From NCBI RefSeq assembly GCF_004799665.1, contig NZ_CP031310.1:1046887-1110886 (forward strand): a DNA stretch of 64,000 nucleotides. The letters are read 5' to 3'. Below the pieces are notes generated by a model. The model did no database searches. It saw only the letters and a program-made list of their open reading frames with translations, and had not been told where the DNA came from. The position numbers were made by a program, and so were the translations under genes. The DNA comes from Halapricum salinum (GTDB taxonomy: Archaea > Halobacteriota > Halobacteria > Halobacteriales > Haloarculaceae). Positions 26,507 to 51,848 of the stretch are shown piece after piece. Numbering within the stretch: position 1 is the first letter of the stretch; each line of letters starts with the position of its first letter.

Positions 26507-26647
26507 CTATCGTCCCGTCTCGGCCTCTGGATTGTTCTTCCGGCGGTAACTCCCGACCATCTCCCAGAGGGTCGCCTCGATATCGTCGTCGCCGGCCTCC
26601 GTTTCTAACTGCCGGTACAGGTCTTTCGACACCGATATTTCAGGCAT
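26507..26647 (-). CDS. Small antitoxin-like/DUF7557-type protein (46 aa)
   Basis: A 46-residue protein MPEISVSKDLYRQLETEAGDD... ending RRKNNPEAETGR. The opening beta-strand and helix (VSKDLYRQLE) look like a ribbon-helix-helix-type small protein, and the pattern resembles haloarchaeal proteins I know as DUF7557. A minus-strand TATA-like box (tttataatta, about 26668-26678) lies about 26 bases upstream, supporting the start. No toxin partner is adjacent, so a toxin-antitoxin role is not claimed. Confidence 0.6.
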   Translation of the reverse strand: MPEISVSKDLYRQLETEAGDDDIEATLWEMVGSYRRKNNPEAETGR

Positions 26648-26815
26648 CACCAGATTCTTCACGGCTAATAATTATAAATCTGTTCGTGGACGTCTCAATG
26701 GCGAAATTCGTCCCGGACCAAACTATTATTTTACTGCTGCTCGATTTCGGAATCGAATGGGTGGGAGAGTCGGTCACCGTGGGCGGGCACTGGTCTTCTC
26801 GTCGTCTTAGCCCGT

Positions 26816-26858
26816 CCGGAAGGACAGATCCAGCGTCTGCGCGGAGTGAGTCAGACTG
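26816..26858 (-). repeat. Direct repeat copy 1: displaced nadC 3' end
   Basis: Forty-three bases that match 29476-29518 at all but one position. Read on the minus strand they spell the C-terminus of NadC (SLTHSAQTLDLSFR) and here continue TG-stop, a clean gene end. It is detached from the rest of nadC by about 2.66 kb, so it is a relic of the original gene end. The downstream PQQ-propeller gene uses a stop codon inside this copy. Confidence 0.9.
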
Positions 26859-28119
26859 AATTACTACTCCGGACGGCGACGATTCGATCGTCGGTGAGCG
26901 CGTACACGTCACCGAATGCGACGGCCGGCGCGCCTCGTAGACGCAGGTCTTCCTGCCAGCGAATCTCGCCGTCGGTCGCGTCGACGATTGCCAGTCCCTC
27001 GGGGCCGCCGAGGACGACAGCGTCGTCGGCAACTACCGGTGGATACGCCCAGGCAGGATCGCCAATCAGATCTCGGAGTGGCTCGTCCAGGCTCCACTGG
27101 CGAGACCCACTGGACGTGGCGAGTGCGATCAGTCCATCGTCCTCGTGGGGTGCGTACAGCGTCTCCGTGTCGACGCCGACACCGATCCTCGCACCGGAGA
27201 GATCAGCTCGCCAGTTCTCAGAGCCGTCGTCGCTGTCGAGTGCGACGACCGTGCCGGGTTCGGAAGACGGATCAGGTCCACCGCGGCTGCCGTCGGTGAG
27301 CACGAATACCTGACCCTCGTGTATCGCTGGTGCTTCGTAGATCGGCTCGGTGAATTGCTCTTCCCACTCAACACTCCAGTCGTCGGTGTCGAAGCCGACG
27401 ACCAATCCGGATCGACTGCCGTCGACACGCAACGCGTGGGCTGCGACATCGTCCCCGACTGCGAGGCCGCCGTCGCTTCCGTTCTCGCGAGTCCGTTCGG
27501 TCGAAATGGAGTTCCCCGTCTCGGGATCGATACGTGCGACGGACCCCGAGAGGTACAGTTTCTCGTGATTTCCGGTCAGCCTGTCGCCGTATAAGAGCCC
27601 TGTCTCGTCCGTCCAGACCAGTTTCTCCTCTGCTGGGTTGATTCGGTCCCGTCGATACTTACTGTGGATGAAGACCTCACTTCCGGCGACGACAGGTGCC
27701 GGTGTCCGGGCGAACGCTGATGATTTGAGGTCGTCGTCAGCGATGTCGGTGAGGCGCCACAGCTGTTCCGGCTCCGTGCGGTGGACGGCCGTCGGCTCGT
27801 AGTCGGTATCGACCGCAGTCGCGTAGACGGCGCGGTCTGTGACTGCAATCCCGGGTCGAGATACGTAGTCCAGCGATCGGTGATCTGGGATCGTCAGTGA
27901 CTCTCCGTATCCCCAGAGTCGTTCGACTTCGTAGGGAGCTTCAAGCCGTGTTTTCGCCTGACCGGTCTGGGCGAGGTCGCCTCGATACATCGGCCACTTT
28001 TCGGTGTCGGACGCATCAAGCGGTTCTCCCGGGGTCTCTTTGCCTGAGAGCATCGAACACCCGGAGAGCGTAAGCATCCCGCCTGTTGCGAGAACTTGCC
28101 GACGAGTTAGTAGCCTCAT
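26851..28119 (-). CDS. Tat lipoprotein with PQQ-like beta-propeller repeats
   Basis: A 422-residue exported protein. Tat motif TRRQVLATGG and lipobox LSGCS give a lipid-anchored protein. The rest contains recurring propeller-blade motifs of the PQQ/BamB type: WPMYRGDLAQTG, EQLWRLTD, GTVVALDSDDGSENWRADL, SGSRQWSLDEPL, DATDGEIRWQEDL. Such propellers are binding scaffolds, and only some bind PQQ; no redox partner is seen. It starts three bases after the stop of the Tat-exported gene upstream, so the two form one transcript inside the island. Its last residues (SSNSV) and stop run into the nadC repeat. Confidence 0.78.
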   Translation of the reverse strand: MRLLTRRQVLATGGMLTLSGCSMLSGKETPGEPLDASDTEKWPMYRGDLAQTGQAKTRLEAPYEVERLWGYGESLTIPDHRSLDYVSRPGIAVTDRAVYATAVDTDYEPTAVHRTEPEQLWRLTDIADDDLKSSAFARTPAPVVAGSEVFIHSKYRRDRINPAEEKLVWTDETGLLYGDRLTGNHEKLYLSGSVARIDPETGNSISTERTRENGSDGGLAVGDDVAAHALRVDGSRSGLVVGFDTDDWSVEWEEQFTEPIYEAPAIHEGQVFVLTDGSRGGPDPSSEPGTVVALDSDDGSENWRADLSGARIGVGVDTETLYAPHEDDGLIALATSSGSRQWSLDEPLRDLIGDPAWAYPPVVADDAVVLGGPEGLAIVDATDGEIRWQEDLRLRGAPAVAFGDVYALTDDRIVAVRSSNSV

Positions 28120-28122
28120 ATA

Positions 28123-29310
28123 TTATATAGTGAATTTGACTTGATCCATTAGATCAATGAAGTGCGAATCAATATATCGGTTAAAATCCATTCCTTCTAA
28201 TTCATACCATGTTGCTTTCGAGTGGACCCTGCCAACTGGCTGGTATGATCCAAACCAAGAGCTTTTTTGAACCGTTCTATCAACATCAGCCAACGAACCA
28301 GGATTAACGCTAGCTGTGTACTTCTGGGTATGGTTGCTTCCTATTGACACTCTCCATTTGCCAAGATCTTCCCATGGATCACTCTCGTCGTAAGTTTGCA
28401 CATCGTGCTGAGTGTAGGTGTTGCTGGTAGACACATTGATTCCCGGAGGCCAGGAGATACTAATTCCTGCACTCCAAGTTTCACTCACTTGGCCAGTCAC
28501 ATCCGACCTAGGGTATCGACTTTCATGTTTCATATCTGCATTGTCGTCCCATTCGTGCTCAAGTACCAACTCAGTATTTCTGATTGAGTCATCAACACCA
28601 TCCAGGGCTCCACCACCCATCTCTGAGAAGGAAACAATTCCGTATGCATCGTTTTCAGTGTCAGATTCGTGATACCTATAACAATCCACCTTGGTGAAGA
28701 ATTTCCCGTAATCTTCGACTGTATTTGTTTCTATAGTTTCTGTAATCTTGTTCCAGTCGTTAAAGTCACCTGTTGAACTTGTTCCAATACTGTATTCAGA
28801 TTGTGTTTGTAGTCTATCTGAACCACTATCTCGGGAGCCAATTCGATCAAGGTGTTTATCAGCTTCGTTAAATGTGTCTTCTATTTGTTGTTTGTTAGTC
28901 GTTAGCTCCCGTGATCGCCTCCCATTATCCCTTCCCTGACGTGAGGCTGGTATGTCATATCCAATGAATTCTTTGATAATCCCATCATCCACCCCAAGGT
29001 TGTAAGCACGAATTGGTTTTTGCTTGGGAAGCGAAAGCGCAATCCCATCGTTGTTCAAATCACTTTCTTCGACAAACTCGTCAAAGTACTTGGCTCTGAT
29101 AGTCTGTAGGTTTCGCCGTGAAAGCGGTATCGAAGGCGCACGGGACCGGACAAAGGCTTTCCCATTTCGCTTGACGATAGGTGCTTCTTCACTCTTTCCT
29201 GGTCTGGCCTCGGCAGCACCGGTCGTGCCTATTGAACTCACAAACAGGCCAAGGCCCGTTGAGCCCAATAATTTGAGTGTCTTTCTACGGTTATAATTGT
29301 CTTCAGACAT
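28123..29310 (-). CDS. Tat-exported protein of unknown function, AT-rich gene
   Basis: A 395-residue protein. Tat signal NRRKTLKLLGSTGLGLFVSS with likely cleavage after TGAAEA. The mature part has a charged helical region (ELTTNKQQIEDTFNEADKHLDRIG) then a Ser/Thr/Trp-rich part (GISISWPPGINVSTSNTYTQHD, WRVSIGSNHTQKYTASVNPGS) suggestive of beta structure; no family recognised. Base composition is clearly lower in GC than any other gene in the window and codons often end in A or T, a sign of recent acquisition. Start at MSEDNYNRRK; six residues further upstream is possible. Confidence 0.72.
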   Translation of the reverse strand: MSEDNYNRRKTLKLLGSTGLGLFVSSIGTTGAAEARPGKSEEAPIVKRNGKAFVRSRAPSIPLSRRNLQTIRAKYFDEFVEESDLNNDGIALSLPKQKPIRAYNLGVDDGIIKEFIGYDIPASRQGRDNGRRSRELTTNKQQIEDTFNEADKHLDRIGSRDSGSDRLQTQSEYSIGTSSTGDFNDWNKITETIETNTVEDYGKFFTKVDCYRYHESDTENDAYGIVSFSEMGGGALDGVDDSIRNTELVLEHEWDDNADMKHESRYPRSDVTGQVSETWSAGISISWPPGINVSTSNTYTQHDVQTYDESDPWEDLGKWRVSIGSNHTQKYTASVNPGSLADVDRTVQKSSWFGSYQPVGRVHSKATWYELEGMDFNRYIDSHFIDLMDQVKFTI

Positions 29311-29475
29311 CAAATGGCAATTTAACAAAGAGTGAAAAAATGTTTCTATATGAGTCTAATATATTATGTTCTGGGTGCTCTTCTATTTAATTGCTCTACA
29401 GTACTACAGTAGCAAGAATTTGAATTGAAAATCCGATAGCCAATGATGTTCAGCGAAGCCTCACAACCCGCCTGA
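29311..29475. promoter_or_regulatory. AT-rich leader of the island operon
   Basis: These 165 bases between the Tat gene and the nadC end are very AT-rich and include candidate leftward TATA boxes (catataga near 29345; cataatatatta near 29356-29367). Two tandem copies of ctacagta occur at 29396-29411, and most of this block reads as an inverted repeat around the central gta. No open frame. Confidence 0.4.
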
Positions 29476-30282
29476 CCGGAAGGACAGATCCAGCGTCTGC
29501 GCGGAGTGGGTCAGACTGCCCATCGAGATGACGTCGACGCCCGTCGCCGCGTAATCGGGCACGTCGGCGACGGTGATCCCGCCGGAGGCCTCCGCGAGCA
29601 CGTCCGCCTCGGCCGCACGGAGTCGCTCGACAGCCCGCTCGGTCTCGTCGGGGGACAGATTGTCCAGCAAGACGATATCTGCGCCGGCCTCGGCGGCCCG
29701 AGGCGCGTCCTCAGGGCTCTCGACCTCGACTTCGATCTTGGTCGTGAACGAGGCCCGCTCTCGAAAGTGCTTGATTGCTCCGGTCAGCCCCATCTCGGCG
29801 ACGTGGTTGTCCTTGACCATCACCATGTGCGAGAGATCCAGCCGGTGGGTGTCGCCGCCCCCCGCCACGACCGCCCGTTTCTCGATGCCGCGCAGACCGG
29901 GCGTGGTCTTTCGAGTGCAGGCGATCCGGACCGACTCGTCGACTTCACGAGCGCGCTTGACAGCCTCGCGCGTCTTCGTCGCGACTCCGGAGGCGTGTCC
30001 GGTGATATTGACGGCAACGCGCTCGCCCCGGAGCGTTTCCTGTGCAGGGCCGTCGGTCCTGAGAACGACGTCACCGGCGTCGGCTCGGTCGCCGTTCTCG
30101 ACAGTCGTCTCGACGTCGACGTCGAGATACTCGAAGACGGCCGTCGCGGCGTCGAGGCCGGCGACGACGCCGTCCTCTTTGGCGACGAGTCGACCCTGCG
30201 TTTCGCCTGGAACGTGGTTCGTGACGTCGTGATGGCCCAGGTCTTCCTGAAGCCAGCGTTCGATTGTGCTGTCTGGAATCAT
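29461..30282 (-). CDS. nadC: Nicotinate-nucleotide pyrophosphorylase (carboxylating)
   Basis: A 273-residue type II phosphoribosyltransferase that turns quinolinate and PRPP into nicotinate mononucleotide, the third step of de novo NAD synthesis. Motifs: EDLGHHDVTNHV near the N-terminus, TRKTTPGLRGIEKRAV (PRPP/quinolinate site), GGGDTHRLDLSHMVMVKDNH, EVEVES, DIVLLDNLSP, and EASGGI near the end. It follows nadB by seven bases in the order nadA-nadB-nadC. The final four residues appear to come from the integrated island. Confidence 0.95.
   Translation of the reverse strand: MIPDSTIERWLQEDLGHHDVTNHVPGETQGRLVAKEDGVVAGLDAATAVFEYLDVDVETTVENGDRADAGDVVLRTDGPAQETLRGERVAVNITGHASGVATKTREAVKRAREVDESVRIACTRKTTPGLRGIEKRAVVAGGGDTHRLDLSHMVMVKDNHVAEMGLTGAIKHFRERASFTTKIEVEVESPEDAPRAAEAGADIVLLDNLSPDETERAVERLRAAEADVLAEASGGITVADVPDYAATGVDVISMGSLTHSAQTLDLSFRSGGL
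29476..29518 (-). repeat. Direct repeat copy 2: 3' end of functional nadC
   Basis: Partner of 26816-26858, with one mismatch (G for A at 29509 versus 26849). It lies in frame inside nadC and codes the last conserved residues (SLTHSAQTLDLSFR); beyond it the gene ends SGGL-stop instead of TG-stop. Confidence 0.9.
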
Positions 30283-48018: not shown

Positions 48019-49848
48019 ATGGCAGGAGATCCAGTGGTAACCGTCCTCGATTTGGACGGGCGGCTCGACGAGATCGTCGAGGCGACCCGCAGAGGTGGGA
48101 TCGAGGACGTCCGGACGGTAGCGACGGTCGAGGGGATCGACGAGGCAACCGACTGCGTGATCGTCCCGGACTCGAAGTCCGCTGGCGTCGACGGGATCGA
48201 GCTTTGCCGGCGGGTCCGCGAGTTGATCGGCGACGTTCCTGTCGGAGTGTATGCGTTCGAGGGAGAGATCGACCACACGTTCGGGCTCCTCGAACACGGT
48301 GCGGACACGGTCGTGTCGGTTCCGCCGGAACGACCGGCGTTGCTGGCCACGCGAGTACGCCGGCTGGCCGGTGTCGCAGACACCGAACCGCTCGAACAGC
48401 AGTTCCGATCCTTTCTGGAGCACTATCCCGAACAGATATTCTTCAAGGACCGCGAAGGGACGTTCGTCAACGCGACGCGGTCGGACGTCTTCGACGGCTA
48501 CGACATCAGCGCCGAGGACGTGTTCGGGCTCTCGGACTACGAACTCTACCGCGACGAACTGGCGGAAGAACTCTTCGCGGAGGAACAGGAACTCCTGGCA
48601 CGTGCAGAGAGCCTCGACGGCAAGATCGAACACTATCTCGAAGACGGCGAGGACAGGTGGGTCTCGACGACGAAAGTCCCGCGATACGACAGCGACGGGG
48701 AGTTGCTGGGGCTGGTCGGCAACGTCCGGGACGTCACCGACATCAAGCGTCAGGAGCGGACGATGGCGGCGCTGCACGAGGCGAGTCGGCGACTGGTCAG
48801 AGCCGAGACCAGCGAGGACGTCGCGCGGACGGCGATCGACATCGCCGCGGAGAGTGGACTGCTCCCGGAGGCCCGTGTCGATCTCTTCGAGACGGGAACG
48901 TTACAGACGGTTGCGACGACGGATACGGCCCTCGACTGGGACGACACGTCGTTCCGTCGGGCGGGAGCCGCTGGCGTCGCGCAGTACCGGACAGCGACTG
49001 ATGCGTTCGTCTCGATCGACGTCGACGACCACGATCATCGAGAGTTGTCGTTGCCGGCGGGAATCGAGTCGGTGGTCGGACTCCGGATCCCGCTGGGCGA
49101 GCACGGCGTTTTCGGCGTGGATACGACTGGGGAGACTCTCGATCCGTTCACCGTCGAACTGGCGTACGTACTCGCATCGAATACCGAGGCGGCGCTCGAC
49201 CGAGCCGTCCAGGAGCGACAGCTGGACCAGCAGGCAGCACGCCTGGAGGAGTTCGCAGCGTTGAGTTCCCACGAGCTACGCAATCGCCTGCAGATCGCGC
49301 TGGGGACTGCAGAGCGCGCGCAGGCGCAGGGGGACCTCGACGCGGTCGAAGACGTGATCGAGACGCTGGGACGGATGAATCGGCTGGTCTCGCAGTTGCT
49401 CGCGCTGGCGCGAACGGGCTCTGCGGCCCGGGGTAGCGAGTCGATCGCGCTCTCGGGGATCGGCGATGTCGCCTGGACTGCCGTCGAGAGCGCGACGGCG
49501 ACGCTGACCGTCGAGAGCGACGGAATTGTCACGGCTGATCGGGACGGGCTGTTGGAGGTACTGGAGCTGGTGTTCCGGACGGTCGTCGACGGCGGTGGTA
49601 GTGACGAGGCCCGAGTCGGGACGCTCGAGGATGGCTTCTACGTCGAGGACGACGGGACTGCGATCACGCCCGAACAGCGAGAGGAGTTGCTCGAACCGAC
49701 TTACTCCGCCGTCAACGAGGCGACTGGCGACAGCGTCCACCTCGTGGCGACGATCGCCGACGCCCACGACTGGGAGGTCTCCGTGACCGAAGCCGGCGGG
49801 AAGACCCGGATCGCTTTCCGGAACGTGGAGATCGCACACGTGAAGTAG
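48019..49848 (+). CDS. PAS-GAF sensor histidine kinase homologue, first of a tandem pair
   Basis: A 609-residue soluble protein: receiver-like domain lacking a clear phospho-acceptor (about 5-118), PAS (about 128-245, FKDREGTFVNATRSDVFDG and VGNVRDVTDIK), GAF-like domain (about 250-395), HisKA with SSHELRN (His418), and an ATPase-like C-terminus. In the last domain the N-box equivalent reads VLELVFRTVVDGG, with Thr where Asn is needed, and the G-boxes are reduced (GFYVEDDGTAI). Kinase activity is therefore doubtful. The neighbour at 49968 is a full-length paralogue. Confidence 0.83.
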   Translation: MAGDPVVTVLDLDGRLDEIVEATRRGGIEDVRTVATVEGIDEATDCVIVPDSKSAGVDGIELCRRVRELIGDVPVGVYAFEGEIDHTFGLLEHGADTVVSVPPERPALLATRVRRLAGVADTEPLEQQFRSFLEHYPEQIFFKDREGTFVNATRSDVFDGYDISAEDVFGLSDYELYRDELAEELFAEEQELLARAESLDGKIEHYLEDGEDRWVSTTKVPRYDSDGELLGLVGNVRDVTDIKRQERTMAALHEASRRLVRAETSEDVARTAIDIAAESGLLPEARVDLFETGTLQTVATTDTALDWDDTSFRRAGAAGVAQYRTATDAFVSIDVDDHDHRELSLPAGIESVVGLRIPLGEHGVFGVDTTGETLDPFTVELAYVLASNTEAALDRAVQERQLDQQAARLEEFAALSSHELRNRLQIALGTAERAQAQGDLDAVEDVIETLGRMNRLVSQLLALARTGSAARGSESIALSGIGDVAWTAVESATATLTVESDGIVTADRDGLLEVLELVFRTVVDGGGSDEARVGTLEDGFYVEDDGTAITPEQREELLEPTYSAVNEATGDSVHLVATIADAHDWEVSVTEAGGKTRIAFRNVEIAHVK

Positions 49849-49967: not shown

Positions 49968-51848
49968 ATGACGGCGGGCGAATTACCGGGAGCGCTAGTG
50001 GTGGTCGATCCGGATGGTCGACTCGAACCGATCACCGAGGCTCTCGAACTGGCCGGGATCGAGCCGATACGATCGGTCGAGCGACCGGCGGGCGTCCCTC
50101 GATCGAACGTCGCGGCAGTTCTCGGTATCGACGCGCCAGCGAGTGGGACTCTCCCGAAACAGGACGGTCTCGACCTCTTCAGGCGGGTCCGAGACCACTT
50201 CGACAGCCCGCCACCGATCGCACTGTACGTGCTCCGCAGCGAGCGCACGCGGATCAACGAACTGCTGGACGCGGGTGTCGACGACGTCATCAGAGTCCCG
50301 CCGAAGCGTGAGGCGTTGCTGACGGCCCGCATCGAGCGCCTCTGTGGACTCGATCCGGTCGAACCGCCCGAACAGCAACTGGAGTCGATGCTCGAAAGCT
50401 ATCCGGAGACGGTGTACATCAAAGACCGCGAGGGACGGTTCGTCAACATCTCCGGACACTCGCTGGACAACCGCGAGATGACTCGCCCCCAACGGGTCGG
50501 GCTGACCGATTACGAGCTGTTTCCGGGCGACCTCCCGGATAGACTCTACGAGGAAGAACAGGAGTTGCTGGCCCGCGAGGAGACGCTGTTCGAGAAGATC
50601 GAACACTGGGTCGAAGACGGCGACGATCACTGGGTGTCGACCACGAAAGCACCGCGATACGACGCCGACGGGGAGTTGCTGGGGCTGGTCGGGGACGTCC
50701 GGGACGTGACCCACCTGAAACGCCAGGAACACGCGCTGGCGGCGCTGCACCAGGCTAGCAGGCGGCTCATCCGTGCGGATGACCGAGAGGAGATCGCCGC
50801 GGTGACGATCGATATTGTCGCGGGGATCGATTCGCTGCCTGCCGCCCGGCTCGTGCTCGACGCCGAGGATGGCGAGGGAGACGGGCGTGCTGTCGAAGGC
50901 GGGGGCGAGACCGGCGAGGACAAACGGATCGAGGAACGCTCCGAGAACGGGGAAATCGCCTGGGACGAGACGTCGTTCGAACGGGCGGCGACGAGCGGTG
51001 AGACGTTGTATCTCGCCGACGACGGATCGGTGTTGACCGGGCCACAGCGACGGGAGTACGAGGACACCTGGATGCCAGATCGCGGTGTCGTCGGGGTTCG
51101 ACTGCCGCTTGGCGAGCACGGCGTCCTCGGGATCGAAACGCCCGAGGGACTACTGGAGCCGTTCACGATCGAACTCACGCACATCCTGGCGGCGAACGTC
51201 GAGGCCGTTCTCGACCGCCAGCGCCAGGAGCGGCGCGTCACGCGACAGGCCGACCGGATCGAACAGTTCGCGCGGATCGGCTCGCACGAACTCCGGAACA
51301 ACCTCCAGATCGCGATGGGGGCGGTCGAGCGAGCGCTGGCGGGCGAGGACGAGGCCGGCGAGCAGGCGCTGGCGACGCTCGAACGGATGGATCGACTCAC
51401 CTCGCAGTTGATGACGCTCGCTCGAACCGGCTCGATGGTCCGCGGGAACGGCCAGGTCGATCTCTCTGAGGCCGCCGGCACGGCCGCCGAGTCGATCGAC
51501 GGCGATCTGACTGTGCTGGCGGACACCAGCGCGACGGTGCAGGCAGATCCCGACGCGCTGGTCGAGGTGCTGTCGGTGCTGTTTCGCAACGTCGCCGATC
51601 GCGACCCGGCGGCGACTATCGAGATCGGTGTCATCGACGAGGGGTTCTACGTCACCGACGACGCGCCGACGCGACTCGATCCCGACGCGAGCGACCTGTT
51701 CGAGCCGGTCTACTCGGAGACCTCCGGCGAGAGCGATGGCAGCCTCTATCTCGTGTCGGTGCTGGCGGAGGCGCTCGACTGGGAGGTTTCGATCACTGCC
51801 GAGGACTCCGGAACGCGGATCGCTTTCGAGGGCGTCGTCGTCGACTAG
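49968..51848 (+). CDS. PAS-GAF sensor histidine kinase homologue, second of a tandem pair
   Basis: A 626-residue paralogue of the preceding protein, colinear throughout: receiver-like domain, PAS (IKDREGRFVNISGHSL, VGDVRDVTHLK), GAF, HisKA with GSHELRN (His440), and an ATPase-like end in which the N-box Asn is retained (VLSVLFRNVADRD). The GAF region carries an acidic/Gly-rich insertion (about 302-320) that the first copy lacks. No membrane segments, so it is a cytoplasmic sensor. No full-length response regulator is adjacent. Confidence 0.83.
   Translation: MTAGELPGALVVVDPDGRLEPITEALELAGIEPIRSVERPAGVPRSNVAAVLGIDAPASGTLPKQDGLDLFRRVRDHFDSPPPIALYVLRSERTRINELLDAGVDDVIRVPPKREALLTARIERLCGLDPVEPPEQQLESMLESYPETVYIKDREGRFVNISGHSLDNREMTRPQRVGLTDYELFPGDLPDRLYEEEQELLAREETLFEKIEHWVEDGDDHWVSTTKAPRYDADGELLGLVGDVRDVTHLKRQEHALAALHQASRRLIRADDREEIAAVTIDIVAGIDSLPAARLVLDAEDGEGDGRAVEGGGETGEDKRIEERSENGEIAWDETSFERAATSGETLYLADDGSVLTGPQRREYEDTWMPDRGVVGVRLPLGEHGVLGIETPEGLLEPFTIELTHILAANVEAVLDRQRQERRVTRQADRIEQFARIGSHELRNNLQIAMGAVERALAGEDEAGEQALATLERMDRLTSQLMTLARTGSMVRGNGQVDLSEAAGTAAESIDGDLTVLADTSATVQADPDALVEVLSVLFRNVADRDPAATIEIGVIDEGFYVTDDAPTRLDPDASDLFEPVYSETSGESDGSLYLVSVLAEALDWEVSITAEDSGTRIAFEGVVVD

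Follow-up and report, generated by a model that had tools for sequence, protein, structure and literature searches.

Insertion of a 2.66-kb segment with two cargo genes at the 3' end of nadC in Halapricum

The nadC locus in a 64-kb stretch of DNA from the genus Halapricum (the window, which was analysed at its full length) raises the question of why the coding end of this gene occurs twice, and which of the two ends is the native one. A preliminary description of the locus had reported a 43-base direct repeat with 42 identities, both copies encoding the NadC C-terminus in the same orientation. Comparison of the two copies (Table 1) confirmed this, and the reading frame of nadC is also kept in both. 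The single mismatch (T/C at base 10 of the core) is synonymous, the Thr codon being ACT in the orphan copy and ACC in nadC. When the whole window was scanned for exact direct repeats, the 33-bp exact match inside the 43-bp repeat was the longest. The only other one of at least 20 bp was a 27-bp pair (48693-48719 and 50666-50692). When nadC ends were compared without gaps with the DNA downstream of them, the repeat scored 40, and the best match in the controls and about 75 relatives scored 10-14. With this score and 42 of 43 identities, the orphan repeat is neither absent nor a chance similarity.

Table 1. Features of the nadC locus, with positions in the window
Feature	Position	Strand	Basis or remark
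46-aa host gene, right-flank marker	26507..26647	-	Same gene directly after nadC in Halapricum sp. CBA1109
Last part of the displaced native nadC end (Thr-Gly, stop codon TAA)	26807..26815	-	Sequence; SFRTG near-universal in relatives
Orphan repeat copy, part of the displaced nadC end, candidate attR	26816..26858	-	42/43 identical
PQQ/BamB-like beta-propeller gene, 422 aa	26851..28119	-	Pfam PQQ_2, 2.3e-24; stop codon in orphan repeat
Inserted segment	26859..29475	.	Unit length 2660 bp including one repeat copy; absent at the CBA1109 empty site
AT-rich gene, 395 aa, no known family	28123..29310	-	Tat-type signal RRKTLKLLGSTGLGLF, read by eye
nadC, quinolinate phosphoribosyltransferase, intact, 3' end rebuilt (SFRSGGL and stop)	29461..30282	-	Pfam QRPTase_C/QRPTase_N
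nadC-joined repeat copy, candidate attL	29476..29518	-	Repeat comparison

As had been described, the copy joined to nadC ends in SFRSGGL and the orphan copy in SFRTG followed by a stop codon (TAA, 26807-26809). Among about 75 nadC loci of relatives the SFRTG ending is near-universal, with or without a few extra residues, and SFRSGGL was never met; the nadC of the closest congener is 82% identical to that of the window. Since the orphan end matches the ending of the relatives, it is the native one and the end now carried by nadC is new. The gene has thus received a replacement end, and its native end has been shifted by 2,660 bp. The PQQ gene has its stop codon (26851-26853) within the orphan repeat. 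An in-frame orphan end with the native stop codon and high similarity to nadC would also result if a second nadC, arisen in tandem or by transfer, had lain on the other side of the cargo and a deletion had then left only its last coding bases. Such a deletion must have left just the gene end plus a complete PQQ gene. As it is the orphan that has the native SFRTG ending and the native flank, this history also requires a new end for the intact nadC; we consider it unlikely.

An empty site with a single copy of the repeat, which the preliminary description had named as the observation that would confirm an insertion, is present in Halapricum sp. CBA1109. There a gene of 46 residues lies 90 bases beyond the nadC stop codon. 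It shares 64-65% identity with the gene next to the orphan in the window, and the sequence upstream of it can be aligned as well when the window's left and right flanks are put together; this evidence comes from one relative at genus-level distance, whose contig ends about 570 bases after nadC. The 46-aa gene is common in the family; of its listed locations, only those in the window genome and in CBA1109 are next to nadC. The two cargo genes are not a general feature of the relatives, as neither was found in 145 other Haloarculaceae genomes (no relative of the AT-rich gene at E 1e-5, no close relative of the PQQ gene at E 1e-20). The CBA1109 empty site, the near-universal SFRTG ending and the absence of the cargo from relatives together make an insertion at the nadC 3' end, with the gene rebuilt as had been proposed, well supported by sequence comparison.

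The cargo consists of two open reading frames that fill nearly the whole segment. The earlier statement that these are only two exported-protein genes, one of them AT-rich, holds, the export signals having been read by eye; G+C is 62% in the PQQ gene, 45% in the AT-rich gene and 66% in nadC. The PQQ/BamB-like protein starts with a Tat-lipoprotein-type signal (RRQVLATGGMLTLSGC). It has one relative, with 33-36% identity, in 391 other genomes of the order, which adjoins an ABC-transporter-like gene and has no AT-rich gene beside it, and no relative was found on plasmids or viral contigs. At another place in the genome, 27 bp of the PQQ gene are matched exactly within a Tat lipoprotein gene whose product has the peptide VDTETLYA in common with it; this match was set aside. 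The AT-rich gene gave no match in Pfam and NCBIfam and no relative in plasmid, phage and viral collections; the 392 genomes of the order held remote matches only (E about 1e-5 to 1e-3). An AlphaFold prediction of the AT-rich protein alone reached a pLDDT of 33, and the model was not usable. Its remote haloarchaeal relatives (L177-L179) share 20-25% identity, have no family model and form a very divergent group, several members of which are Tat-type exported too.

The locus has the geometry of a circle that entered a gene end by a single crossover and restored the frame. The segment, about 2.66 kb in circular or excised form, would have carried an attachment site that differed little from the 43 bases at the nadC coding end (up to SFR), and one recombination event between this site and the 3' end of nadC would have placed the segment in a Halapricum chromosome. 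The crossover would most likely have taken place in the 33-bp exact core (29476-29508). The single mismatch lies on the core's 5' side, in agreement with a crossover to the right of it. At the left junction the segment would have supplied new last codons and a stop codon (SGGL) for nadC, and at the right junction the native end (TG and stop) would have been kept beside the 46-aa gene. The agent would be a tyrosine-type site-specific integrase, whose gene may have been lost or may have been supplied by another element. Our best guess, with a probability of roughly 60% (like our other gradings of mechanisms, a judgement and not a computed value), is integration by an integrase that has since been lost or that acted in trans. 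It is supported by the length of the repeat, since 43 bp fits archaeal attachment sites (29-69 bp with a median of 45 in crenarchaea), and by the thaumarchaeal element NitEve-E2, which likewise replaced the stop codon of its target gene (PMC6563490).

A search for the agent itself gave little. The segment has no integrase gene, its open reading frames encoding the PQQ-type protein and the exported protein without a family, and no integrase relic was detected in it; the four tyrosine-integrase matches of the genome (PF00589), none of which lies near nadC, have no meaningful similarity to the segment. A split integrase of the SSV type at the ends does not apply, as both repeats are nadC coding sequence and the flanks are nadC and the 46-aa gene. 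In the 43-bp core, the best inverted arms were no better than those of shuffled sequences, a comparison in which short imperfect sites are easily missed. Neither a tRNA nor an exact direct repeat of at least 18 bp was found in the neighbourhoods of the genome's own integrases (L174-L176), and thus no donor can be named for mobilisation in trans. Transposition or a casposon-like insertion with a 43-bp target-site duplication would explain why both copies resemble the host's own nadC. The segment has neither a transposase nor a Cas1 gene and its ends carry no terminal inverted repeats. Usual target duplications are far shorter than 43 bp. We regard a transposition of this kind as highly improbable.

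The repeat itself bears on how the segment came by its nadC end. The two copies are alike at 41 of 42 positions, and the window nadC matches any of 127 relative loci (some genes among them fetched twice) at no more than 38 of 42, and congeners at 34-35. As the copies are more alike than the nadC of any relative, the segment probably acquired its copy from this lineage, or the copy stayed similar to it. Weak similarity continues past the core (4 of 6 bases, TCAGGC and ACGGGC, with a chance of about 5%), as expected if the segment carried a nadC-like end of its own. This lineage-specific copy, the absence of a recombinase and the single occurrence of a nadC insertion would also suit a Campbell-type recombination without a dedicated integrase, in which a circle had picked up a short nadC-end fragment of this lineage, by end joining or imprecise excision for instance, and then entered the chromosome by recombination, homologous or microhomology-mediated, over some 43 bp shared with nadC. 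Such a length is short for RadA-type recombination, and an insertion exactly at a gene end with the frame restored is typical of integrase targets. We take this as the main rival of the integrase reading, and judge it rather unlikely.

If an integrase recognised the nadC end, other insertions there would support this without being strictly required, and the preliminary description had proposed a search for nadC-end repeats flanking other cargo or a tyrosine integrase. None emerged. A degenerate nadC-end pattern, which covers the less divergent ends and matched 149 of 392 genomes, was present twice in the window genome alone; the 148 other haloarchaeal genomes with a match had it once each. No second repeat copy lies downstream of nadC in any of about 75 loci of relatives, and a search of viral contigs with a similar pattern gave no match. 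With the window genome's own integrases as the only queries, the nadC neighbourhoods of 80 relatives gave a single match, a weak one about 9 kb off. With a single nadC-end motif per other genome and no integrase nearby, repeated targeting of nadC is not supported, and a limited literature search found no report of nadC as an insertion target. The earlier suggestion of an element mobilised in trans, or one that lost its integrase, therefore found no direct backing in these neighbourhoods, nor was the action of an integrase itself borne out by the segment, by another nadC insertion or by a detectable dyad in the repeat. Doubt over a standard integrase event thus comes from the segment without an integrase, the lack of a dyad above chance and the lineage-specific repeat copy, and also from the lack of a second nadC insertion in the 148 genomes and of a viral contig with a nadC end.

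Other observations were made at the nadC loci of relatives. In one congener (G005) a TnpB-like gene (IS1341/IS605-type, by eye) lies about 280 bases after the nadC stop codon; it is a different mobile element in the same place, with no duplicated nadC end. Two congeners (G001 and G002, one contig each, 99% complete) gave no nadC match at E 1e-30, and thus some members of Halapricum may lack the nadC route to NAD. The nadC matches of G017, G101 and G121 fall into two pieces within one open frame, which suggests a short in-frame insertion near residues 110-117.

Insertions of this style have been described in other archaea. Of 68 mapped thaumarchaeal elements, 14 lie in the 3'-distal part of a protein gene, with biosynthetic genes among the targets, and most thaumarchaeal repeats are shorter than 26 bp (PMC6563490). 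These elements, NitEve-E2 among them, share with the nadC segment the 3' end of a protein gene as target, direct repeats, a stop codon derived from the element and an empty site in a relative (PMC6563490). In contrast, the nadC segment measures 2.7 kb, has two cargo genes, a 43-bp repeat and no integrase that we could find, and belongs to another target gene (nadC) and another lineage (Halobacteria). The Halorubrum virus BJ1 is also a haloarchaeal element with a protein-coding gene as its attachment site, the HMG-CoA reductase gene (cited in PMC8371274). Unlike this virus, which uses another target gene, the nadC segment has no viral genes and no relative in phage or viral collections. In Islander-type islands in tRNA genes, too, the target gene is restored by the island and the displaced fragment lies at the other end (PMC4383910); the nadC segment differs in its protein-gene target and its lack of an integrase, and no tRNA was found in the window. 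The view that such an insertion is unusual in a biosynthesis gene was thus only partly right, given the precedents in Thaumarchaeota (PMC6563490) and for halovirus BJ1 (PMC8371274). As insertions at archaeal protein-gene ends with a replaced stop codon have been described (PMC6563490), there is little new in the insertion style. The style is ordinary, and the payload is unusually small and integrase-free.

What the locus offers is a clean, testable halobacterial case of foreign DNA at the end of a core metabolic gene that is still readable, with no tRNA targeting and no recombinase of its own. It indicates how small cargo can become fixed in a genome and how an insertion can rewrite SFRTG, a conserved protein end. 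We tentatively propose, as a possibility to which we attach no great weight, a minimal integrase-free halobacterial passenger of about 2.66 kb, with two exported-protein genes and a nadC-end attachment site, that was moved by an integrase acting in trans. If mobilisation in trans is true, non-autonomous passengers would join the haloarchaeal mobilome.
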